Notes under the pieces: model-generated
What the model was told of the DNA's origin: nothing
Databases searched by the model: none
Seen by the model: the letters and a program-made list of their open reading frames with translations, nothing else
Part shown: positions 4,290-56,844 of the stretch, one piece after another
Layout of the letters: the number at the start of each line of letters is the position of its first letter
How positions within the stretch are numbered: the stretch's first letter is position 1
Made by a program: the position numbers and the translations under genes
Source: Meghimatium bilineatum
Taxonomy: Eukaryota; Mollusca; Gastropoda; Stylommatophora; Philomycidae
Length of the DNA: 64,000 nt
Reading direction: 5' to 3'
NCBI GenBank assembly: GCA_034231615.1
Contig: CM067322.1
Span: 66,325,354 to 66,389,353 of the forward strand

Positions 4290-5717
4290 CGTAGATTGCT
4301 ACGGAAACCTCAAAAAATAGAATAAAGTTGCGTCTAGAAAGAGATATAATACGGAACAAAGTATAGAGATAGATAATAGAACACGGAAAAGACTTTTATT
4401 ATGTATTAGAGAGATATTAGAACACGGAATAACGTTGAATATAGAGAGATATATATTAGAACACAGAATAAAGTTGAATGTACAGAGAGAGATATTAGAA
4501 CATGGAACAAAGTTGCGAATGAAGAAAGAGAAATTAGAACACGGAACTGGATATATAGAGAGATATTAGAACATGGCACACAGTTGGAAATGTAGAGAAG
4601 ATATTAGAACGTGGAACAAAGTTAGGTATGGAGATAGATACTAGAACATGGAACAAAGCTGGGTGTGTGGAGAGATAGTAGAACATGGAACAAAGTTAGC
4701 ATGCAGATAGATACTAGAACATGGAACAAAGCTTGGTATGGAGATATATACTAGAATATGGAACAAATTTGGGTTTGGTATGCAAAGAGATATTATAACA
4801 TATAACAAATTTGGGTATATATAGATATATTAGAACATGGAACACATTTGTGTATATCGAGAGATATTAGAACATGGAACAAAGTTAAACATGGATAGAG
4901 ATACTAGAACATTGAAAAAATTGGGTTGGATATGTAGTATGTCGGAACAAAGTTTAGTATGTAGAAAGATATTAGAACATGCAACAAAAGTCAGTGTAGA
5001 GAGAGATATTAGAACTTGCAACAAAAGTCAGTGTAGAGAGAGATATTAGAACATGCAACAAAAGTCAGTGTAGAGAGAGATATTAGAACATGCAACAAAA
5101 GTCAGTGTAGAGAGAGATATTAGAACATGCAACAAAAGTCAGTGTAGAGAGAGATATTAGAACATGCAACAAAAGTCAGTGTAGAGAAAGATATTAGAAC
5201 ATGCAACAAAAGTCAGTGTAGAGAGAGATATTAGAACATGCAACAAAAGTCAGTGTAGAGAAAGATATTAGAACATGCAACAAAAGTCAGTGCAGAGAGA
5301 GATATTAGAACATGCAACAAAAGTCAGTGTAGAGAGAGATATTAGAACATGCAACAAAAGTCAGTGAAGAGAGAGATATTAGAACATGCAACAAAAGTCA
5401 GTGTAGAGAAAGATATTAGAACATGCAACAAAAGTCAGTGTAGAGAGAGCTATCAGAACATGCAACAAAAGTCAGTGTAGAGAGAGATATTAGAACATGC
5501 AACAAAAGTCAGTGTAGAGAAAGATATTAGAACATGCAACAAAAGTCAGTGCAGAGAGAGATATTAGAACATGCAACAAAAGTCAGTGTAGAGAGAGATA
5601 TTAGAACATGCAACAAAAGTCAGTGTAGAGAGAGATATTAGAACATGCAACAAAAGTCAGTGTAGAGAAAGATATTAGAACATGCAACAAAAGTCAGTGT
5701 AGAGAGAGATATTAGAA
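4290..5717 (+). repeat. 37-bp tandem array with a decayed left flank
   Basis: From about 5000 the unit is a homogeneous 37 bp (GAGAGATATTAGAACATGC followed by AACAAAAGTCAGTGTA, about 19 copies). From 4290 to 5000 the same GATATTAGAACATGGAAC core appears with variable spacing and many substitutions. The gradient from decayed edge to uniform centre is the pattern expected from unequal crossing-over. Confidence 0.93.
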
Positions 5718-5838
5718 CAAGGGGCAGAGTTTGGTATGTAGAGAAATGAGATCATGAAAGAATATTGGTTGTGGAGAAAGACATCAAAGCATTGAACAAA
5801 TTTGGTTATTTAGACATGAGAACATCAAACAAACAATA

Positions 5839-6039: not shown

Positions 6040-6535
6040 TCCAGGAATAGGGTAATACAGTTTTGCTAGTTAGAGACAAACATAGTAACACACACAACTC
6101 GATGTTTCGACCAAAAGGCCTTTATCAAGACAGACAATTGAAACAATTAAAACATATAACAGAAAGCGAACAGTAATGACATCGACAGTCACATTGGTAT
6201 GTGTAGTTTGGATTGACCGGAAGATGTGAAATGACACCGAACAAGGAAAATACAAAAATGACCACAAACATGTGACACGAAACAAACAGAAACTATGGAT
6301 CGACTAGAGTCATACATGAGACAGGCGCTCATTAATGCCGTCGGGTTTAAGAGTGTCATATTGGTGAATGTAGCGGTTCTCAAGCGTCAGACTGATCCGG
6401 TCGTCATAGAAGCACGACTTAATGGCCGTAACCTGAATTTCCTTGGCGTCCCGATGACCCGTGCCATCTATATATGTCATGACGCAACTCTTGCATATGA
6501 TTGCATTGATTGTGGGACACACATGTTAAACTCAT
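6040..6535 (-). mobile_element. Penelope-like element, inverted 3' end with internal deletion
   Basis: On the minus strand this encodes the end of a PLE GIY-YIG endonuclease: ICKSCVMTYI, then a jump to GHRDAKEIQVTAIKSC, then LENRYIHQYDTLKPDGIN, then a stop and 3' UTR ending at about 6043 (CCAGGAATAGGG). About 30 residues, including the catalytic-Arg segment (GETERRLADRFCEH in the other copy), are deleted between the YI and GHRD parts. It is the inverted partner of 7180-7762, so the two 3' ends point outwards. It cannot encode an active nuclease. Confidence 0.85.
6100..6132 (-). ncRNA. hammerhead-ribozyme-like motif in PLE 3' UTR (UUGAUAA core)
   Basis: Minus-strand order: TTGATAA (6122-6128), a GGCC/GGTC stem II with a TTTT loop, then GAAAC (6104-6108). 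This matches the layout of a hammerhead core (CUGAUGA - stem II - GAAA), but with C3 to U and G8 to A. These two bases pair in the active hammerhead fold, so the change is compensatory. PLEs are known to carry hammerhead motifs. Stems I and III were not resolved and activity is unknown. Confidence 0.35.
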
Positions 6536-7762
6536 CGGAGATCTCTACCTCCCATGTGAACTTTCTTGACATATCCAGCACTATTCAACCATTCTGTCTT
6601 TGCACATCGGTACACTACAAACCGACTGATGTCCATAGCTTTCTTCTATACACCTCTTCTCATCCCTCTGCCTGTCGTCATTCTCTTCCATTATTCCAAC
6701 GTCTTCGTCTTCGGCGCTTGTACAGTTGCGAGGACGACTTCCTCGAGAAGGCCTACGGGATGATGGCTTTCTTTCGCTGTCGCCTGTACCCTGAGAGTAT
6801 CTTCAGGTGTGCCTTTCTTCGAGTGTGCAGTCTCTCCCGTCAGGACACTCTCTCGACTACTCGGAAGTCTTCCTCTTCTGACAGGGTCAAGCTTGTTCTC
6901 ACTTTCCACCCCCATAGCGCTGCCGTTCGCCATGTCCTTTGTCACCTTCCCCTTCTTCAGTCTGACCCCGAGACGCGGGAAGTGCTCTGTGCCCCCTCCC
7001 CCTCTTGTTGCTTACAGACGTGACAAAAAACTCAGGAATCTACTGGTCCCGAGTCACTCCAGCCTGACGTTCCTAATAATTTTGGCACCATCAGATGCAA
7101 ACGCAGCAAATGCTACATTTGTGCCTATGTCACCCAGATCCAGTCTGTCACATTCCCTAAAGCCACCTTCACCATTGACGAGAACTTCACATGTGTGTCC
7201 CGCAACGTCATCTATGCCACCATATGTAAGCGTTGCGTCATGACATATATAGGTGAAACTGAAAGGAGGCTCGCAGACCGATTCTGCGAACATCTGTATA
7301 GCATAAACAACCGTTCGGGTTTGCTTGTAGACGTCGACTTTAATGACACAGGAATTGGGCGCCCAGGACAATCAGGTTACGGCCATTAATTCTTGCTTCT
7401 GTGACGACCGGACCCGTCTGGAGCTTGAGAATCGCTACATTCACCAATATGGCACTCTTAAACCCGACGGCATTAATGCGCGCCTGTCTCATGTATGACT
7501 CTAGTCGATCTACAGTTTATGTTTGTTTGTGTCACATGTGTGTGGTCATTTTTTTATTTCCCTTGTCCGGTGTCATTTCACCTCTTCCGGTCAAACCATA
7601 CTACGCATACCAATGTGTCTGTCGATGTCATTACTGTTCATTTTCTGTTATATGTTTCGATTGTTGTCATGATAAAAGCCTTTTGTTTATAACGTCGATT
7701 TGTGTGTGTTATTATGTTTGTCTCTAACTAGCAAATCTTTATTACCCCATTCCTGGATATAT
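6535..7762 (+). mobile_element. Penelope-like element, RT C-terminus plus GIY-YIG endonuclease, frameshifted
   Basis: The plus-strand frames follow the Penelope-type order. First comes the RT end: NFLDISSTIQ, then SVHYKPTDVHSFLLYTSSHP, then a finger/thumb part with LTFHPHSAAVRHVL and LLQSDPETREV. Then comes a linker with PPLVAYRRDKKLRNLLV and CKRSKCYIC. Last is the GIY-YIG domain (VIYATICKRCVMTYIGET, RRLADRFCEH, then LENRYIHQYGTLKPDGIN with the catalytic Glu). A TGA near 7021 and shifts near 7020, 7075 and 7340 break it. PLEs move by an endonuclease-primed reverse transcription. The RT core is missing, so the copy is dead. The 3' UTR ends near 7758 (ATTCCTGGA). Confidence 0.88.
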
Positions 7763-11880: not shown

Positions 11881-12735
11881 AATACAATATAAAGTACTAA
11901 GGTTACTGGTAAAGCCTAACTATCAAAGTTAAAAAATAAACAAAAGAACAAGGACTTTTTCTACGTAAAATGAGATGCCAATAGTGATTAATTAATAGGT
12001 GATAAATGAGATCAAATGAAAGTCCAACGTAAAAGACAAAAAGGAATCTAATGCATCATCTATTCCAGGCACTGTCAACTATATATCCTCCCCTACCATT
12101 TTCCCTCACCGTCCATAGTATCAACCTTGTCTATTGGAAGACGCCTGCGACCATTTTTATGTATCAAATACTGCAAATTTTAAAAAGTTTTCTTATTTTT
12201 CTCCCCACCCCTAAAATTTGCATCACCCCCCCCCCTTTTTTTTCCAGTCTCGTCATTGCTTATTGTTGGCCTCCACTTCTGCTATTGTCATCATGTTCTT
12301 TTCCACATACACGTTACTTTGTGTGTGTGTTCTGTGTTCGCTTTTTTCATCCTTTACGTTGGGCTTTCATTTGATCTGATTTATCACGTATTAATTAATC
12401 ACTTTTGTTACCAATAAACATACAAATTCGGACAAAAAGTTCATTTTCATTACTCTATAGGAATTTCTATCTGTCAATGGTGCGTAATCATTGTGAACGC
12501 ACATATTTCAACATCCACTAAACGTGCCTCATTATTCGGTGCGTCTCGCTGTAAGAATGATATCTCCAAATAATCATTTATATTTTGGTATTTCCTGTGT
12601 CATGTTTACTCGTTTCTTGAAAAAAGTCCCATTTGGAACGTATTATAGAAAAAGTCCTTGTTCTTTTGTTATTGGTATTTATTTATTTTTTAATTTGATA
12701 GTTAGGTATTAACAGTAACCTTAGTACTTTATATA
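11881..12735. repeat. large inverted repeat with interrupted right arm
   Basis: The left arm (11881-12037) is the reverse complement of 12342-12411 joined to 12641-12735. Landmarks are TTAATTAATCAC, GACTTTCATTTGATCT, AGAAAAAGTCCTTGTTCTTT and CAGTAACCTTAGTACTTTAT. About 230 bp (12412-12640) is present only in the right arm. The central spacer (12043-12341) is unrecognised. The arms could form a foldback, or record a head-to-head duplicated element. Confidence 0.85.
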
Positions 12736-20859: not shown

Positions 20860-21160
20860 GATTATGACAACGAGGCTGGTGATGATGATGATGATGATGG
20901 TGGTGGTAACTGTGGCAACGATGGCGGTGGCAACAATCATGATGATGGTAACTGTGGCAACGATGGCGGTAGCAACAATCATGATGATGGTAACTGTGGC
21001 AACGATGGCGGTGGCAACAATCATGATGATGGTAACTGTGGCAACGATGGCGGTGGCAACAATCATGATGATGGTAACTGTGGCAACGATGGCGGTGGCA
21101 ACAATCATGATGATGGTAACTGTGGCAACGATGGCGGTGGCAACAATCATGATGATGAAC
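20860..21160 (+). repeat. 42-bp tandem array, about 6 copies
   Basis: The unit is AACTGTGGCAACGATGGCGG followed by TGGCAACAATCATGATGATGGT. Its period of 14 codons opens three long frames (194 residues on plus, 126 and 129 on minus, one of them His-rich). Their repetitive composition and coexistence on both strands mark them as artefacts. Confidence 0.95.
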
Positions 21161-22663: not shown

Positions 22664-22718
22664 TTGCTGATTATATACCCGTATATAATCTTGCTGATTA
22701 TATACCCGTATATAATCA
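22664..22718 (+). repeat. 27-bp tandem duplication
   Basis: TTGCTGATTATATACCCGTA followed by TATAATC occurs twice in succession. Each unit holds the self-complementary TATATACCCGTATATA. Confidence 0.9.
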
Positions 22719-23889
22719 TGCTAGACTTGTATTCGTGGTTCAATGGTATACTTAAACACAAGAGTCTATTCTTCATCTTCTGCGATCAGGTATTTTACAT
22801 CCAGTCTTATATTGGTAAAATATAGAACGATTTGTTTTAGGTCTTTGTGTGTTCCCCAGTTTGTTTTTCAGACTCTCCTCGGGTTCAGACTGTTGTTCTG
22901 TATAGTGTATACTGTTGTATGTTTTCTGGTGTTTGTATAGAAAAAAGGTCCTTGGCATAAAAAGTATTAGCTCTCTGTTACACCATTTAAGGTTTTCCAC
23001 GATAACAAAATGTTTACTAAATATTTCAAATGTATTATGTTCAGGTATGCACAACGTTAAAATATAAAATTTAAGAAAATCTGTATTGTAATTTTTCTAT
23101 GGGTGTGATAACAATTTATCTAAAATGTGTAGTTTTGTGGAGAAATTTATTTTGCCAAACACTGAATGCATACGTAAATTAAACTGTTGTCAAATATTTC
23201 ATTTCTGCAAACTAACTGAAGTGAAACTAAGTATGTACATTAAAAAAAATATGAAAACTACTTTTATCTATACAATGTTTTGGAAAATAATTTGTTTCAA
23301 ATTTAGATACTAGAAGAATATCATACACATTATGTACCAGTGAGACAGTTGAGACTTGGCACAATCAGGTATAAATAAGAAACAATTCCATCACAGAATA
23401 TCACTGACTGAAGTTAAAACTCTCATCAAAGAAAAATACAAATATGCATGGAGTTAAAGAACATGCAGAAATTGTTGACACGATTTCATCCTAAAGCAGA
23501 ACAGATAACACCAACCTACAATCTGTAGGCTCCTCACAAGACACTATTGACTACAAGCACATTTCCAGAAAATTACCGTTGTCCATAATGAGATATGCCC
23601 ATGTCACATGGGTCCTTATACTCCAGATAACATTCTGTAGATATTCCTAATCTTTGACGAGTTGAGGACTAAAACTTATTTCCAAGAGACATAGCTGAAA
23701 CTGAAACTATGTGGCAACTATGAAGATCTACTGATGACAGAGTTCTTGGAGGCCGACTTCCTGCCTGAATAGACTTCAAGGAAACTGACTGCATAAGAAG
23801 AACAGTATAAGACGACGGCGATGTCAAAATTATTAATGATTTGTTTAAATACTTCCATGTGCATGGCAAATTAATAGTTAGTCATACCA
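22719..23889. other. no recognisable feature
   Basis: AT-rich stretch of about 1.2 kb with no family match on either strand. The small open frames overlap each other and look random. Confidence 0.5.
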
Positions 23890-26751: not shown

Positions 26752-27786
26752 TTGTTCAAATGTTTTCTCCATACCTACCTACAAATCACCGCTGATAAAG
26801 AACACCCTCTACACCCTGAAATTCTCAAAGTGAAAGGCAGTCGACTTAAGAGAGAAACATCGTGGATAAGCGCGCAGAGGATATTATACAGTGTGTGTGA
26901 GCAGATTGGAGGATGTGCTTGCCTGATGCGGAATGGAGTCGGGCGCCCTTAGATTGTCCGACAGCCTTCAAAGTAATAACACTCAAAAGAGAATGCAGGG
27001 ATTGATGTCCGAAGGTGGTGGAGTCAAAGGTACTCGCTCTGATCGGTGAGGTTCCAGGAAAGGTGATATGATTATATATACATATGGGTCGTTTTAGAGA
27101 TACATCAGGAGTGCCTAGACCTTCACTGCTCAAAGGTGGGGGAGAGACCATCAGAGAGGAAAGTGGTGCATTCGCTCAGATGACAAGAAGTGCGACAATG
27201 GAGAATTTGGCAGTAACCAAAGCTTTGAAATGGGTGTGCTCACAGACTGTCTGCGAACATGCCTGTATACTCAGTGACTCCGTGAACATGATTGTGAAAG
27301 TTCAGGCAGGGTACATTCGGGAACAGTGGCTGGATGCAGTGAAGAATTCCTATGTGCGTAAAATGACTTTTATTTTTGTGCCGGGACATTCAGGAGTCCG
27401 GGATAATGAGAGAGCAGATAGGTTGGTCGCACGCGCTGCAACTACGGCTGTTGGTGGAGCGATGTATCGGGCAGACATTTTGAACGCCCTACGGGAAAAC
27501 GCACACAAAAAATACTGTATAATTATTGTAAGAATTACTGTAATAATTACTATAAGGGAGCTTGGTTTGAAATATGGTGTCGCTAGAAAGGAGCGCGTTC
27601 GTGGGCGAGAAAGAATGATGGTAAATCAACGGCGTACTGGGACCGTCAGTCAATGTGTAATGGCGGATACACTTAAGGAGAGATCTGAGCAGCTATGGAC
27701 TTGCCCGGAGTGCAGTGACGATGATCCAACGATTAATCAAGTAACTTTTTTCATACAAAGTGTAGCGAGATTTTATAAATGGTAGA
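26752..27786 (+). pseudogene. LINE-B: RT C-terminus, RNase H and 3' end
   Basis: The RT end reads YLQITADKEHPLHPEILKVK and GSRLKRETSW. RNase H follows: IIYTYGS near 27075 (catalytic Asp of YTDGS changed to Tyr), then after a frameshift GAFAQMTRSATMENLAVTKA (Glu), HACILSDSVNMIVKVQ (Asp), FIFVPGHSGVRDNERADRLV (His and Asp). The last part is VMADTLKERSEQLWTCPECS, ending DDDPTIN. RNase H would remove RNA from the cDNA hybrid during retrotransposition. The copy is 5'-truncated with one altered catalytic residue. A TA tract follows directly. Confidence 0.9.
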
Positions 27787-28404: not shown

Positions 28405-28890
28405 AAACTCATAGTACATAGTTAAACCCATAGTCCATAGTTAAACCCATAGTCCATAGTTAAACCCATAGTGCATAATTAAACCCATAGTCCATAGTTA
28501 AACCTATAGTCTATAGTCAAACCCATAGTTCATAGTTAAACCCATAGTCCATAGTTAAGCCCATAGTCCATAGTTAACCCCATAGTCCATAGTTAAACCC
28601 ATAGTCCATAGTTAAGCCTATAGTCCATAGTTAAGCCCATAGTCCATAGTTAAACCCATAGTCCATAGTTAACCCCATAGTCCATAGTTAACCCCATAGT
28701 CCATTGTTAACCCCATAGTCCATAGTTAACCCCATAGTCTATAGTTAAAACCATAGTCCATAGTTAAACCCATAGTCCATAGTTAACACCATAGTCCATA
28801 GTTAAACCCATAGTCCATAGTTAACCCCATAGTCCATAGTTAAACTCATAGTCCATAGTTAAACTCATAGTCCATAGTTAAACCCATTGA
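28405..28890 (+). repeat. 19-bp tandem array, about 25 copies
   Basis: The unit is CCCATAGTCCATAGTTAAA, alternating with an AACC variant. The unit contains an internal ATAGT direct repeat. Confidence 0.95.
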
Positions 28891-28984
28891 TACCCTCTGT
28901 GGTAATTTTCTGCGAAATGTATCTCTTAGCCACCATCTCTTCTTTTTCCATCTAAACCCCAATTTAGTGATTGTAGTGGCAATC

Positions 28985-29130
28985 TATTGACAAAAGTAAG
29001 AAGAAATGCAGTGACAACAATAAGAAGAAAACGGTGGACTTATATCGGACATGTACTTAGAATGAATGAAACTAGATTGCCACTGTCATGTGACCACGTT
29101 CCGGAAAGAAAACGTCAATGACACACAGTG
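28985..29130 (+). pseudogene. LINE RT C-terminal fragment (RRWTYIGHVLRM)
   Basis: The plus strand reads VTTIRRKRWTYIGHVLRMNE followed by TRLPLSCDHVPERKRQ and a stop. This is the helical C-terminal segment after the RT in BovB/RTE- or CR1-like elements (family W-WIGHVLRM). The bases 29036-29068 coding WTYIGHVLRMNE are the apparent source, inverted, of the neighbouring 33-bp array. Confidence 0.82.
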
Positions 29131-29144
29131 GCAATGCATTTTCA

Positions 29145-29448
29145 TTACTTCTAAGTACATGTCTAATGTAAGTCCCATTCATTCTAAGTACAATGTCTAA
29201 TGTAAGTCCCATTCATTCTAAGTACATGTCTAATGTAGGTCCCATTCATTCTAAGTACATGTCTAATGTAGGTCCCATTCATTCTAAGTACATGTCTAAT
29301 GTAAGTCCCATTCATTCTAAGTACAATGTCTAATGTAAGTCCCATTCATTCTAAGTACAATGTCTAATGTAAGTCCCATTCATTCTAAGTACAATGTCTA
29401 ATGTAAGTCCCATTCATTCTAATTACATGTCTAATGTAAGTCCCATTC
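29145..29448 (+). repeat. 33-34 bp tandem array, about 9 copies, inverted copy of the adjacent RT motif
   Basis: The unit is CATTCATTCTAAGTACATG followed by TCTAATGTAAGTCC. Its reverse complement matches 29036-29068, the GHVLRMNE-coding stretch of the RT fragment, at 30 of 33 positions by hand comparison. Some copies have an extra A (TACAATG), giving a 34-bp period. Confidence 0.93.
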
Positions 29449-29451
29449 ATG

Positions 29452-29715
29452 TTAGTAGTTACCTACCTTAATGTTAGCAATTGCCTATCCTAATGTTAGT
29501 AGTTACCTACCTTAATGTTAGCAATTGCATATCCTAATTTTAGCAATTGCCTACCCTAATGTTAGTAGTTACCTACCTTAATGTTATCAATTGCCTACTC
29601 TAATTTTAGCAGTTGCCTACCCTAATGTTAGCAATTGCCTACCCTAATGTTAGCAATTGTCTACCCTAATGTTAGCAATTGCCTACCATAATGTTATTAA
29701 TTGCCTACCCTAATG
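29452..29715 (+). repeat. 22-bp tandem array, about 12 copies
   Basis: The unit is TAATGTTAGCAATTGCCTACC plus C or T. On the left an AGTAGTTACC variant alternates with GCAATTGCC, so part of the array has a dimeric period. The array directly abuts the 33-bp array. Confidence 0.93.
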
Positions 29716-29814
29716 TTAGCAATGCATCAAACAATAAAATATACTAGATTCAATCATAGTTAATGCTCAGATCTTTGGTAGGGGAAAGCACAGGAGTAGC
29801 AAGAGCGAATTCAA

Positions 29815-29940
29815 TGAAGAAACGATGTGGATAAATGTGTGGAGAAACTATGTGGATAACTGTGTGGAGAAACGATGTGGAGAAACGATGTGGATAACTG
29901 TGTGGAGAAACTATGTGGATAACTGTGTGGAGAAATCTGT
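29815..29940 (+). repeat. GTGTGGAGAAACGATGTGGA minisatellite
   Basis: About five imperfect copies of GATGTGGATAACTGTGTGGA followed by GAAAC, with ACTATG/ACGATG variants. Confidence 0.88.
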
Positions 29941-30714: not shown

Positions 30715-32015
30715 TTGATTCTTGATTAAAAACTCACTTCACATCACGCAGTGCATTCCCATAAGTGCTCCGCCCTCCGTTCCAGCAGCCATCCCAGCTA
30801 TGTAGACAGAGTCCCGGTTAGGTGTTTATTGTGTGATACTCCGGATTTTCCTTAAAAAAATACTTTTTCTTCCCTCACCTCTAGATACTCCCATTTCTAA
30901 CATTCTCTGTATGTGTACGTTCTCAGCCTCATTGACATCATCTGCATCTTGAAATCAATTTATTACTGCATTCATTAAGTCTGCTTTATCTCTTTTCAGC
31001 AATGTGCCTTCTATTGCCTCATTGCCTGCCAATAAGTCGGGTCTCTCGTTTCCCCTGACACCAGCATGACCAGGGCAGTATATCCATGTAATGCTCTGGA
31101 CAATTGAGTTGTTCAATAAGTCCCACCATTCTTTTCTCAGCATGAACTTTTCTATCTTTTGTAGTATGCTTTGAGAGTCTGTGAGTATTACCGCGTGTGT
31201 TGATGTATCCGTTATCAACGAATTAAGTGCTTCTGTAACTCCCTCTATCTCCAGCCTCATGCTTGATATGACAGTAGAATATGCTGAAGATATCTCAACC
31301 AACTTCACGCCGTTTCTGTAAGCAACAAAACCCCAACCGCTTTTATTTGTGTTTCTGATAAGGAGCCATTTGTGTATATAATTATGTCTTGTGGTTTCGA
31401 CTGTATTGGGGCGAGTTCATGCACTGTAACCTGGACCCTGACACCAGTTCATTTTCGACACGCTTTATTTATTTGTTGTATTATTACTTTAGTCAGTGAT
31501 TTCTACTCAGTGTCTATCTTCACCCATTCACTGCCCTTTCCTATTTCTTCAAATTCACATACTCTTCACAGTGTGTCTTCAGCTCTGCCATCCATCATCT
31601 GCCACGCTTGATTCGTTTTCCCTTTGATTCATCTAGACGTTGGTGTAACGGGTGGTGGTTGTATTCTGTCACTTTAAGGTACGACCTAACTTGTGCTACC
31701 TGATGTCACTCTCTAATGCTGGGGAAATCAAACAGAAATCTCATAGCAGAGATGGGTGTATTTCTAGTACACCCCAGTACCACTCTCATTGCCTCATTTT
31801 GGACTTTTTCCAAATTTTTTAACATACCGCTTCCCGGCAAGTGGTATTTTCAGAATATTTTTGACAGCATGAGATTGTGATCCAACATTTTCACTGCATA
31901 CAAACGTTGTCGCAGTTGTATTGTTGACACATTTCACCTTTCGTTTGTCGATGATTACCTTCCTCATTAAAATCTTTAGTTCAAGCACAACGCCGGCCTG
32001 TCGGAACAACATAGT
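30715..32015 (-). pseudogene. LINE-A: RT end, linker, RNase H and 3' UTR
   Basis: This is the longest LINE-A copy. From high to low: a KVQNEA/VLG-type RT end decayed to FGKSPK and WYWGVLEIHPS, a stop-rich linker, then an almost clean RNase H (31308-30955). The RNase H shows SSMRLEIEGVTEALNSLI (Glu), HAVILTDSQSILQKIEK (Asp), ITWIYCPGHAGVRGNERPDL (His; RADL changed to RPDL, Asp kept) and TLLKRDKADLMNAVIN. The tail is CTTGATTCTTGATTAA (plus strand). It is dead through upstream stops. Confidence 0.88.
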
Positions 32016-39174: not shown

Positions 39175-39883
39175 CATCATCATCAAGTGCCGTCTCCGCA
39201 ACGAAGGTTGGCTGCAACGTATCTCCAACATCTCCTGTCTCTTGTCTTGGTGGTGCACTCTGCTAGACTGTAACCTGTCCATCGTGTAATGTTACTCTCC
39301 CACTTGTATCTCTGCCTACCTCTTGCTCGCTTCCCTTTGACTTTACCCTCAAGTAAGGTCTTCAATAGGGTGTCATGTCTTTTAATGTGTCCAAAGTATT
39401 TTATTTGCCTGATCTTTATTTCTCTTAGTAGTTCTTTCTTCATATTAAGTGTTTTAGCACCTCTTTATTTGTTTTCTTCTCTTTCCATGATGTTCTCCCT
39501 ATTCTTCTATATACCCACATCTCAAAGGCATCAATTTTGTCTTCTAATTGTTTATTTAGTGTCCATGTTTCTGAGCCATACATTAATATGGAATAGATGT
39601 AGCATTTTATAATTCTCATTTTTAACTTGTTTGTAATTTGTTTAGATATTAATAATTTCCTCATGTCATTGAATGTACTTTTAGCCATTCCTATTCTCCT
39701 TTTAACTTCTGTTTCACATCTGCCATCATTTGTGACTATGTGTCCAAGATATTGATCCAAGATATTGATCCAAGATATTGATCCAAGATATTGATCCAAG
39801 ATATTGATCCAAGATATTGATCCAAGATATTGATCCAAGATATTGATCCAAGATATTGATCCAAGATATTGATCCAAGATATT
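39175..39883 (-). mobile_element. 5'-truncated RTE-like LINE inserted in the RT, 11-bp TSD
   Basis: GGACTATTCTT flanks it (39164-39174 and 39884-39894). On the minus strand it starts with a 13-bp array and continues YLGHIVTNDGRCETEVKRRI, AKSTFNDMRKLLISKQI, MYGSETWTLNKQLEDKIDAF, MWVYRRIGRTSWKEKKTNKE. After a frameshift it reads IRQIKYFGHIKRHDTLLKTL, RARGRQRYKWESNITRW and DRRCWRYVAANLRCG. It ends in a short GATGATGATG tail. It is the C-terminal third of an RTE-type protein. Confidence 0.92.
39742..39883 (-). repeat. 13-bp tandem array at the 5' end of the inserted LINE
   Basis: About 11 copies of GATCAATATCTTG (minus strand), the sequence coding DQYLG at the truncated element's start. With a 13-bp unit the reading frame rotates, giving a 13-residue repeat ISWINILDQYLGS. 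The array begins directly at the target duplication. Confidence 0.95.
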
Positions 39884-40299
39884 GGACTATTCTTAATATC
39901 AGTTAATTCAAATAAACCATTAACCATTATTTTAAATATTCTGTTTAAATATTGTTGGAGATATTACAGATCACTGCGTGGTGTCTTTGTCCTATTCATA
40001 TGTATTTCTGAAATGTCATTATTTATTTCAACTTTAAAGTACATATCTTACATATGTTGTTATGTAGTTATATGCCTTACGAATCATCTATATCTGTGTT
40101 CTTAATTTTAAACAGAGCTCCTTCTCTCTAGCACTCGGCGCAAGCTGTCGCTACGTCGAGGAAGACAGCCACTCTGTCTCCTCTTTCGACATTCTTGGTA
40201 GGTAATAGTAGGATTCCCACTTTTGAAAATATTATGAGCGGATGAGGTCCCTTCAATATGTCAGATATATACATTGATATCTCTATTAACACTCTGGTC

Positions 40300-43639: not shown

Positions 43640-43770
43640 ACACTTTCATCACATACAGACCACATGTACTACATAATAGACACACTTTCAGCACATACAG
43701 ACCACATGTACTACATAATAGACACACTTTCAGCACATACAGACCACATGTACTACATAATAGACAGACA
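43640..43770 (+). repeat. 42-bp tandem array, 3 copies
   Basis: The unit is CACATACAGACCACATGTAC followed by TACATAATAGACACACTTTCAG. The copies are nearly identical, which suggests recent expansion. Confidence 0.95.
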
Positions 43771-45450: not shown

Positions 45451-45884
45451 GTCGTCACACCATCCTTATTGCACACACTTGTCCATATGTGATTCGAACT
45501 CCCATTGAGTATCTCTGCCATCATGCGAGTTTCAGTTTTATATTAGTTAACGACTGTCCTTCCAACCTCATTAAGAGCCTTGCCTTCATTTTATTTCTAT
45601 ACCGTATTTTGAGTCCCCTTTGTTCATTCAGAACTTTAAAAAAAAAGAATCATCACCCTAATTAGTTTCCTTTGCTGGTTGTTTATTGTAATATTTCTTG
45701 CGCATTAATACCAAGCGCTTATTTAATTACTGCGTTATTCCGGTGCTATCATATGGATGTTAGAGCTGGAAAAGCTCTTTATCTTCAGAAAAGAAATTAC
45801 TGGGTTTCCAGAACAAATGTCTTAACTAACACCCATTGAAGTGAATTCAAATCGAATGATAACATCAGAGAAGAGACACATCAA
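45451..45884. other. no recognisable feature
   Basis: Nothing recognised on either strand. Confidence 0.5.
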
Positions 45885-46135
45885 AATGTCATCACAGATG
45901 TTTCAGAAAACGCCGTTGGTCCTACATCAGGCATGTCCTACGCGCAGACACCAACAAAATACACCACAAATCTCTTGAATGGATACCTACAGTCAAAAGA
46001 GCAAGGGGTAGACCAAAAGAAACACTCAGAAGAACAATACTTAGAGAAAGTAAAACAACCAATATTCATACTATTCAAGAAAAGCTGCACAGAAAAGCTT
46101 TGAACAGACAGAATTGGAGAGATCTGACCTCTGTC
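45885..46135 (+). pseudogene. LINE RT C-terminal fragment leading into the 28-bp satellite
   Basis: The plus strand reads RRWSYIRHVLRADTNKIHHK, SLEWIPTVKRARGRPKETLR, RTILRE, EKLHRKALNRQNWRDLTSVT. This is the C-terminal region of an endonuclease-RT LINE (family W-GHVLRM, W-P-GKR-RGRPK-TWRR, A-DR-W), probably the same lineage as 28985-29130. The last codons are already the first satellite unit. The copy is 5'-truncated. Confidence 0.85.
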
Positions 46136-49100
46136 ACCACACTCTTGCTAGTCAACTTCTGTCACCACACTCTTGCTCGTCAACTTCTGTCACCACACGC
46201 TTGCTCGTTAACTTGTCACCACATTCTTGTTTGTCAACTTCTGTCACCACACTCTTGCTCGTCAACCTCTGTCACCACACTCTTGCTAGTTAACTTCTGT
46301 CACCACACTCTTGCTCGTCAACTTCTGTCACCACACGCTTGCTCGTTAACTTGTCACCACATTCTTGTTTGTCAACTTCTGTCACCACACTCTTGCTCGT
46401 CAACTTCTGTCACCACACTCTTGCTCGTTAACTTGTCACCACACTCTTGTTTGTCAACTTCTGTCACCACACTCTTGCTCGTTAACTTGTCACCACACTC
46501 TTGTTTGTCAACTTCTGTCACCACACTCTTGCTCGTTAACTTGTCACCACACTCTTGCTCGTTAACTTCTGTCACCACACTCTTGTTTGTTAACTTTTGT
46601 CACCACACGCTTGTTTGTTAACTTGTCACCACATTCTTGCTCGTCAACTTTTGTCACCACACTCTTGTTTGTTAACTTCTGTCACCACACTCTTGTTTGT
46701 TAACTTTTGTCACCACACGCTTGTTTGTTAACTTGTCACCACACTCTTGCTCGTTAACTTTTGTCACCACACTCTTGTTTGTTAACTTCTGTCACCACAC
46801 TCTTGTTTGTTAACTTTTGTCACCACACGCTTGCTCGTTAACTTGTCACCACATTCTTGCTCGTCAACTTCTGTCACCACACTCTTGCTCGTCAACTTCT
46901 GTCACCACACTCTTGCTCGTCAACTTCTGTCACCACACTCTTGCTCGTTAACTTGTCACCACACTCTTGTTTGTCAACTTCTGTCACCACACTCTTGCTC
47001 GTTAACTTGTCACCACACTCTTGTTTGTCAACTTCTGTCACCACACTCTTGCTCGTTAACTTGTCACCACACTCTTGCTCGTTAACTTCTGTCACCACAC
47101 TCTTGTTTGTTAACTTTTGTCACCACACGCTTGTTTGTCAACTTCTGTCACCACACTCTTGCTCGTTAACTTCTGTCACCACACTCTTGATAGTCAACTT
47201 CTGTCACCACACTCTTGCTCGTTAACTTGTCACCACACTCTTGTTTGTCAACTTCTGTCACCACACTCTTGCTCGTTAACTTCTGTCACCACACTCTTGC
47301 TCGTTAACTTCTGTCACCACACTCTTGTTTGTTAACTTCTGTCACCACACTCTTGTTTGTCAACTTCTGTCACCACACGCTTGTTTGTCAACTTCTGTCA
47401 CCACACGCTTGCTCGTTAACTTATCACCACACTCTTGTTTGTCAACTTCTGTCACCACACTCTTGCTCGTCAACTTCTGTCACCACACTCTTGATAGTCA
47501 ACTTCTGTCACCACACTCTTGCTAGTCAACTTCTGTCACCACACTCTTGCTCGTTAACTTGTCACCACACTCTTGTTTGTCAACTTCTGTCACCACACTC
47601 TTGTTTGTCAACTTCTGTCACCACACTCTTGTTTGTCAACTTCTGTCACCACACTCTTGTTTGTCAACTTCTGTCACCACACGCTTGCTCGTTAACTTAT
47701 CACCACACTCTTGTTTGTCAACTTCTGTCACCACACTCTTGCTCGTTAACTTCTGTCACCACACTCTTGCTCGTCAACTTCTGTCACCACATTCTTGTTT
47801 GTTAACTTCTGTCACCACATTCTTGTTTGTCAACTTCTGTCACCACATTCTTGTTTGTCAACTTCTGTCACCACACGCTTGCTCGTTAACTTATCACCAC
47901 ACTCTTGTTTGTCAACTTCTGTCACCACACTCTTGCTCGTCAACTTCTGTCACCACACTCTTGATAGTCAACTTCTGTCACCACACTCTTGCTAGTCAAC
48001 TTCTGTCACCACACTCTTGCTCGTTAACTTGTCACCACACTCTTGTTTGTCAACTTCTGTCACCACACTCTTGTTTGTCAACTTCTGTCACCACACTCTT
48101 GTTTGTCAACTTCTGTCACCACACTCTTGTTTGTCAACTTCTGTCACCACACGCTTGCTCGTTAACTTATCACCACACTCTTGTTTGTCAACTTCTGTCA
48201 CCACACTCTTGCTCGTTAACTTCTGTCACCACACTCTTGCTCGTCAACTTCTGTCACCACACTCTTGCTCGTTAACTTCTGTCACCACACTCTTGCTAGT
48301 CAACTTCTGTCACCACACGCTTGCTCGTTAACTTATCACCACACTCTTGTTTGTCAACTTCTGTCACCACACTCTTGCTCGTCAACTTCTGTCACCACAC
48401 TCTTGCTAGTCAACTTCTGTCACCGCACTCTTGCTCGTTAACTTGTCACCACACTCTTGTTTGTCAACTTCTGTCACCACACTCTTGCTAGTCAACTTCT
48501 GTCACCACACTCTTGCTCGTTAACTTCTGTCCCCACACTCGTGCTCGTCAACTTCTGTCACCACACTCTTGCTCGTTAACTTCTGTCACCACACTCTTGC
48601 TAGTCAACTTCTGTCACCACACTCTTGCTCATCAACTTGTCCCCACACTCTTGCTCGTTAACTTCTGTCACCACACTCTTGCTAGTCAACTTCTGTCACC
48701 ACACTCTTGCTCGTTAACTTGTCACCACACTCTTGTTTGTCAACTTCTGTCACCACACGCTTGCTCGTTAACTTCTGTCACCACACGCTTGCTCGTCAAC
48801 TTCTGTCACCACACTCTTGTTTGTCAACTTCTGTCACCACACTCTTGCTCGTTAACTTCTGTCACCACACTCTTGCTCGTTAACTTCTGTCACCACACTC
48901 TTGCTCGTTAACTTCTGTCACCACACTCTTGTTTGTCAACTTCTGTCACCACACTCTTGCTCGTTAACTTCTGTCACCACATTCTTGTTTGTCAACTTCT
49001 GTCACCACACTCTTGCTCGTTAACTTCTGTCACCACACTCTTGCTCGTCAACTTCTGTCACCACACTCTTGCTAGTCAACTTCTGTCACCACACTCTTGC

Positions 49101-49500
49101 TCGTTAACTTGTCACCACATTCTTGTTTGTCAACTTCTGTCACCACACTCTTGCTCGTTAACTTCTGTCACCACACTCTTGCTCGTCAACTTCTGTCACC
49201 ACACTCTTGCTAGTCAACTTCTGTCACCACACTCTTGCTCGTTAACTTGTCACCACATTCTTGTTTGTCAACTTCTGTCACCACACTCTTGCTCGTTAAC
49301 TTCTGTCACCACACTCTTGCTCGTTAACTTCTGTCACCACACTCTTGCTAGTCAACTTCTGTCACCACACTCTTGCTCGTTAACTTCTGCCACCACACTC
49401 TTGCTCGTTAACTTGTCACCACACTTTTGTTTGTCAACTTCTGTCACCACACTCTTGTTTGTCAACTTCTGCCACCACACTCTTGCTCGTTAACTTCTGT
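46128..49500 (+). repeat. 28-bp satellite, 3.4 kb, about 120 copies, higher-order repeats
   Basis: The unit is ACTTCTGTCACCACACTC followed by TTGCTCGTTA, with shorter ACTTGTCACC units lacking three bases and TTTGT/TAGT/CTCGT variants. GTTAAC and GTCAAC (HpaI/HincII sites) recur per unit. Because unit lengths mix, frames rotate and yield many repetitive ORFs. Blocks of mixed variants recur: the segment at 47547 onwards recurs 470 bp later, and identical minus-strand stretches occur at 46372 and 46892 (520-bp shift). Confidence 0.96.
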
Positions 49501-55985: not shown

Positions 55986-56748
55986 GTTTATTGTTCACAA
56001 CTCGCATCCATATGATATTATATGAATAATGTAGCACTGCAGTGATCTTTTTCTCATCTCTAATACTACGGTCATATTACACAATATATTTTTCATTTTA
56101 TGAATGATGTTTTTGCCTGCCCTAATCTGCTTCTTATTTACGCTGAGCTTCTTCCATCTGATGCCGTCGCTGTACCTAAAAACTTGAATTGTTGGACCTG
56201 CTTTAATACCATGTTGTTTACTTTGATCTTGCACGTTGTTGAATTTTATTTCTTTGAAATAACCACCACGTCTGTCTTCTTGCTGTTTAATAAGAAGTCT
56301 TTCTCTTTACTTTCTGTGACTACTATCTTAATCAGTTCTTGAAGATCTTCTTCACTTTTAGCAATCCGAACAGTGTCACCCGCATACCTTAAAATATAAT
56401 ATACCGGTATGTATGTTATTTACTCCCACTTATATTCCAAGGATACCAACTACTGCGGGTATTATGTTTTCACTGTATAAAAATAGCATGTCTGGTGAAA
56501 GTACACATCCCTGTCTAACAGCTTGTTGTATTTTTTTAAATGGTCCAAATTGATTTCCTTGTCGTATTGCTGCTGTTTGGTGCCAGTACATGCTCTTGAT
56601 TTTTAAATCATTACTGTCAATGTTCAAATTCTCTTGCATGTGGATATCTTCACTATGTTTAACTTTATCAAATACTTTTGTGTAGTCTATAAAACATAGG
56701 TACAGGTCTGCTTTTACCTCTATAGACCTCTTTCTTGGTGCTATTGCG

Positions 56749-56749
<1 letters not shown>

Positions 56750-56844
<95 letters not shown>
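56750..56844 (+). repeat. TA microsatellite inside the RT coding region
   Basis: About 95 bp of TA with one TTA break. It sits between the codons for GKGTING and APRKRSIEV, where related RTs have no gap. Confidence 0.95.

Follow-up and report, generated by a model that had tools for sequence, protein, structure and literature searches.

How does a tandem array begin, and can its beginning still be read once the array has grown? The origin of an array's first unit can seldom be seen, because it is erased by amplification and homogenisation. A short array near the middle of the 64-kb window (the whole stretch of DNA that was analysed) raises this question in an accessible form, as it lies beside an open frame resembling a reverse transcriptase (RT), and its units resemble part of that frame read on the opposite strand. 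The locus is considered here with respect to what the array was derived from, and by which steps.

The array and the adjacent RT-like frame

The nine-copy array of the first-pass annotation is real, and is reported by Tandem Repeats Finder at 29149-29450 with a period of 34, a 33-letter consensus, 9.0 copies and 97% matches. In the phase adopted here (Table 1), the units stand head to tail in an orientation that is identical in all nine. Counting substitutions only, mean pairwise divergence is 3.2% among the nine units and 1.4% among the interior seven, with the private changes sitting in the first and last units and the interior units homogenised. The term 'satellite' is too generous for such an array. 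Classical satellites form long arrays that are abundant and occur at many loci or in heterochromatin, whereas the window holds a single array of the 33-bp kind of about 300 bp, which is a minisatellite. What had been called a direct view of satellite birth is a deduction from one locus, and it concerns a minisatellite.

Three further arrays lie close by, giving four arrays (units of 19, 33, 22 and 25 bp) in about 1.5 kb at 28405-29940, of which the 33- and 22-bp arrays abut at 29449. No relation is evident between the 33-bp unit and the abutting 22-bp unit, their score of 15 ranking 28th of 380 comparisons among 20 units. The top of the 380 comparisons (score 36) is held by the 31-bp unit of 2084-2517 and the 42-bp unit of 43640-43766, which are alike.

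The RT-like frame upstream of the array is open from 28930, and 28990 is the analyst's chosen start, from which onward the translation reads TKVRRNAVTTIRRKRWTYIGHVLRMNETRLPLSCDHVPERKRQ. The segment WTYIGHVLRMNE begins with the W codon at 29035, and its 12 codons occupy 29035-29070. It carries the W-Y-IGHVLR motif, which we take to be a hallmark of certain LINE C-termini. In a single BLASTP comparison with the window frame 45863-46129, itself called a LINE C-terminus by eye, 9 of 20 residues are identical (E 6e-6), and part of this match falls outside the 33 bp shared with the array. A Pfam search of 28987-29121 returned zero families at E values up to 1, and for the comparison frame at 45863 it returned no LINE family, only a sub-threshold DUF7463 (E 0.024). 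Thus, the proposal that 29036-29068 encodes WTYIGHVLRMNE of a LINE RT C-terminus stands as far as an RT-like frame is concerned, whereas its LINE part finds no echo in Pfam. Judged from one pairwise match and the motif, with Pfam silent, the LINE identity of the fragment is likely but not settled. The frame is presumed in what follows to be a LINE fragment and the source of the array.

Elsewhere in the window, an RT match was found in only one of ten further frames submitted to Pfam (RVT_1 at 56433-56771, E 2.4e-7), and RNase H matches lie at 27084-27785 (E 1.5e-7) and 30955-31308 (E 5.2e-10). The frames at 2693, 39443 and 45863 are RT-like by eye, and Pfam names none of the three RT. Two of these frames are associated with arrays of their own. 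The 45863 frame (plus strand), which resembles a LINE C-terminus, runs stop-free into an array that starts at 46130 and comprises 122 copies of a 28-bp unit over 3.4 kb (45863-49500 in all). Inside the minus-strand frame 39443-39886, for which Pfam finds no family, a 13-bp array of 10.9 copies at 100% occupies 39743-39884 on the minus strand; it lies at QYLG codons in direct orientation, and is perhaps a second, very recent array derived from RT-coding DNA, here without inversion. A further structure, at 6142-6451 and 7357-7665, consists of long 90% inverted repeats (among the 25 longest of 256 pairs) around or overlapping the frame 7024-7386, which has a sub-threshold GIY-YIG match (E 0.032). 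We suppose that the structure at 6142-7665 is possibly a Penelope-like element.

Table 1. Features of the array, the adjacent frame and the inverted repeat that joins them
Feature	Position	Strand	Remarks
RT-like C-terminal frame, containing RRKRWTYIGHVLRMNETRLP	28990-29121	+	43 codons and stop at 29119-29121; from translation
12-nt perfect inverted copy of 29073-29084	28975-28986	-	Near the fragment start
Left arm of inverted repeat	29036-29086	+	Within the RT-like frame; 51 nt, 84% complementary
Spacer (hairpin loop), 38 nt	29087-29124	+	RT-like frame enters the spacer and stops at 29119-29121
Right arm, inverted copy	29125-29175	-	First 18 bases (29125-29142) outside the array; other 33 are the first unit
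Nine-unit 33/34-bp minisatellite	29143-29443	- (relative to the RT-like frame)	Five 33-bp and four 34-bp units; adopted phase

An inverted repeat joining array and frame

On the minus strand, the consensus of the units and 29036-29068 agree in 30 of 33 bases, with three mismatches, just as the first-pass annotation had counted. Alignment of single units with the same stretch, which that annotation had called for, gives 3 to 5 substitutions per 33 bases in each case, with one inserted base in addition in the four 34-bp units; the first unit differs at 5 of 33 positions, and the other eight at 3 to 4. The gap between 29068 and the first unit measures 74 bp, and not the 'about 80 bp' given earlier. 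Aligned locally with 29123-29460 in reverse complement, 28987-29122 scores 62, whereas 500 dinucleotide shuffles of the fragment gave a mean of 16.6 and a maximum of 29, and chance similarity of unit and fragment is ruled out by this difference. With 28985-29460 masked, no further DNA copy of the fragment stretch is found elsewhere in the window, where the two strands give best scores of 24 and 28.

In the alignments, three differences from the fragment are common to all nine units, and must therefore predate amplification or have arisen in the fragment. One of the three alters the glycine codon of the motif, and glycine is presumably the consensus residue at that motif position. If glycine is ancestral, the array holds the derived state at this codon, a reading that is weakened by the arginine found in the 45.9-kb frame too. 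The minus-strand reading of the array unit retains the RT-like motif. As to direction, the open frame continues past both ends of the homologous segment. The fragment, and not the array, is the likely source, because both the frame and the match to the 45.9-kb frame extend outside the 33 bp; derivation of the fragment from the array is disfavoured on the same grounds.

Pattern searches in viral_contigs and genome_contigs (viral, bacterial and archaeal contigs) gave 0 matches for the array, which is uninformative for an animal-like genome. For the RT-like piece, viral_contigs gave 8 pattern matches, none of them a confirmed relative, and these have little bearing on such a genome either.

The match between unit and fragment is part of a larger structure that the first-pass annotation had overlooked, an inverted repeat with 51-nt arms that pair at 84% across a 38-nt spacer and mismatch at 8 of 51 positions (Jukes-Cantor, JC, 0.176). 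The inverted homology outreaches the 33-bp unit by 18 bases on the spacer side, and runs unbroken into the first unit. The inner end of the right arm, at 29125, lies 4 bases past the sense-frame stop at 29121. As single-stranded DNA, 28965-29185 folds with DNA parameters into a hairpin of -40.9 kcal/mol (z -6.86), and 0 of 200 shuffles are as stable. A nearby reverse-complement copy across a short spacer, the arrangement by which template switches are recognised, is present at this locus. Since an array that merely resembled the fragment is not expected to carry extra homology next to its edge, the inverted arm probably came first and the array grew from it, and the minisatellite is read as a descendant of the right arm of the inverted repeat. 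The arm is longer than the unit, it passes unbroken into it and the motif is kept, so that the origin of the array from an inverted copy of the adjacent fragment, as first proposed, is the most likely one. The part of the fragment upstream of 29036 is not mirrored, on inspection by eye, at the far edge of the array, implying that the far end of the original arm has been lost. A fold-back artefact of sequencing or assembly was rejected by reasoning, as arms made in that way should be almost identical, and those observed have 8 mismatches in 51 positions.

Smaller matches accompany the inverted repeat. The 12-nt pair 28975-28986/29073-29084 is possibly a second small switch; it is not significant, given that 45 of 500 mononucleotide shuffles of 28890-29122 contain a perfect inverted pair of at least 12 nt. 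A third copy of the core of this pair, AGTGGCAAT, occurs at 29127-29135. At the junction, TGTCAT (29084-29089) and ATGACA (29118-29123) provide a microhomology of only 6 nt, which is a possible priming site for the switch.

Within the window, the inverted-parent arrangement is a special case and not the rule. For this comparison, 75 overlapping Tandem Repeats Finder rows were merged into 29 arrays, short-period and some small arrays being excluded, and each of them was compared, on both strands, with its own 1.5-kb flanks and set against control scores. The inverted flank partner of the 33-bp array scores 51, a value reached by 0 of 86 controls (control maximum 25). An inverted match above all of its own controls was obtained for 3 of the 29 arrays, with the 33-bp array by far the strongest; for the other two, 22664-22722 (26 against 25) and 43640-43766 (23 against 22), the partner scores one point above the control maximum. 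Direct edge copies above controls were found for two arrays, 4408-5719 and 20897-21157. Inverted pairs no more than about 500 bp apart (score of at least 38) were scanned for without gaps, giving 304 raw pairs, which were reduced, on removal of those dominated by two dinucleotides and of near-duplicates, to 5 rows at 2 loci, the 29036-29175 region and 11979-12407. The latter is a 64-nt inverted pair (11979-12042/12344-12407) with 301 nt between its members, and is possibly a MITE.

Inversion, amplification and rival explanations

The explanation that probably holds is one local inverted duplication of a LINE-type fragment by fold-back or template switching, followed by tandem growth of a 33-bp piece. 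Here, a degenerate LINE-type fragment, an RT C-terminus on the plus strand, would have undergone a single local inverted duplication, in which synthesis of a strand, having passed about 29121, turned back on itself or moved to another template, so that the fragment was copied in reverse. The two copies would then stand tail to tail as an inverted repeat, with arms of 51 bp or more and 38 nt between them. A head-to-tail duplication of a 33-bp piece of the new antisense arm would have come next, and slippage or unequal exchange would have extended it to nine units and homogenised the interior by the same process. The greater distance of the first unit from the fragment (5/33), itself part of the arm, is read as edge decay. 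Homogenisation of the array appears to be younger than the inversion, because divergence between the arms amounts to 8 of 51 positions (JC 0.176), against 3.2% among the units and 1.4% among those of the interior. We infer from these features the LINE nature and source role of the fragment, the fold-back step and the order of events, and the product was presumably a neutral by-product without function.

Hairpin or template-switch copying had been invoked earlier for the locus as a whole, rather than unequal crossing-over. Such copying is a good reading of the inversion step, but it does not extend to the amplification, where homogenised units in one orientation fit slippage or unequal exchange. 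A homogenised interior with divergent edges is what these ordinary processes typically leave behind, and amplification looks like a separate, ordinary step that is distinct from the inversion, so that the two kinds of process need not be set against each other.

The order of elements bears on the chemistry of the inversion. Sense (28990-29121) is followed by the spacer and then by antisense (29125-29443), and the turn lies 3' of the element whichever strand is read. This order fits a fold-back or template switch in DNA replication or repair, or second-strand snap-back, and there are documented cases of inverted repeats written by template switching (PMC8794818, PMC7954356). Retrotransposition chemistry could also be held responsible, the inverted copy arising by twin priming or by snap-back of the LINE RT and the array being added later. 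Inversions at the 5' end were found in human L1 insertions (18.4% of germline and 21.9% of somatic ones; PMC12016303), and R2-type proteins make insertions in which snap-back junctions are seen (PMC11371274). However, in twin priming and first-strand snap-back, as interpreted from these sources, the inverted part is 5', giving antisense then sense, so that the sense-first order found here disfavours both. The 3' element end expected of such events is missing in addition, and only second-strand snap-back would fit. Retrotransposition as the origin of the inverted copy is therefore highly improbable.

An inverted repeat can also be assembled without any fold-back copying, if two fragments from one LINE family were inserted or left independently in opposite orientation, tail to tail, and the antisense one expanded. 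The window holds retroelement debris, such as the RVT_1 and RNase H matches and the frames RT-like by eye described above, and an arm divergence of 8/51 could equally be the divergence between two members of a family. Against such an assembly, both pieces span the same short stretch, the antisense piece being just 51 nt long, and its inner end is 4 bases beyond the stop at 29121, a point on which two truncations would have had to converge independently. In addition, the remainder of the window contains no other DNA copy (best scores 24 and 28). Two separate fragments are thus rather unlikely to have produced the locus. A small mobile element of the fold-back or MITE-like kind is very unlikely. 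In that case, the palindrome with AGTGGCAAT ends would be the element, with the array as its cargo, and the LINE likeness would merely have come along. The 12-nt inverted pair and the third copy of its core agree with this possibility, and arrays borne by MITEs and by Helitrons or Helentrons are known (PMC12628747; for oyster Helentrons, PMC7492417). Against it, the 12-nt pair is not significant (45 of 500 shuffles), no target-site duplication is seen by eye at 28975/29084, the one pair of ends inspected, and the remaining window has no second copy.

If a local inverted duplication with later tandem growth is the correct explanation, the presumed source, the inverted intermediate and the array all survive within about 460 bp, and the order of inversion and then amplification is readable from them. 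The 33-bp array would thus be a small, well-preserved case of array birth, with no new mechanism by itself. It is unlikely that minisatellites are seeded by a route of their own in which transposon coding DNA is copied in inverted form by template switching, the palindrome destabilises replication, and expansion takes place in the copied arm instead of the source. Against its generality, only 1 of the 29 arrays in the window has a strong inverted partner. Were the route real and common in this repeat-rich genome, many arrays should lie beside a single reverse-complement 'parent', with half of a hairpin joining the two.

Comparison with known systems

Tandem repeats related to LINE reading frames have been described in other animals. 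For instance, PROsat of Phodopus and Pvc 20 of Phoca are related to L1 ORF2, and HinfI/SCR1 of chicken is related to the CR1 3' UTR and partial ORF2 (PMC9659126). The array described here resembles them in that its unit is related to coding DNA, in this case presumed, of a non-LTR retrotransposon. Unlike PROsat, Pvc 20 and HinfI as they are presented in that source, it consists of nine 33/34-bp units that are inverted, with the presumed source fragment still 74 bp off and the joining arm preserved. More generally, satellites have been traced to LINE UTRs, LTRs, gag/pol domains and parts of DNA transposons, and to MITE and Helitron routes (PMC12628747), and nine satellites are reported to stem from short tandem arrays within Ogre-type LTR retrotransposons (PMC7004042). 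Among the routes described in the passages covered of PMC12628747, none has coding DNA copied in inverted form and expanding afterwards. In the literature on repeat-array origins that was covered, which is limited and makes this a weak statement, no origin of exactly this kind was found.

The inverted copy itself has parallels in the short-range template-switch inversions of the four-point model (PMC7954356, PMC8794818), with which it shares a nearby reverse-complement copy and a repeat capable of forming a hairpin. It differs from the inversions treated in those sources in that part of the copied arm has turned into a tandem array; fitting the four switch points would require the ancestral state. 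The internal arrays of MITEs, Helitrons and Helentrons (PMC12628747, PMC7492417) likewise lie beside inverted repeats in a transposon-like context, whereas at the locus described here the terminal repeat is not significant and the window holds no second copy. Tandem arrays from LINE ORFs and inverted copies made by template switching are each known, and their combination at one locus, with the source adjacent, is a modest variant of both.
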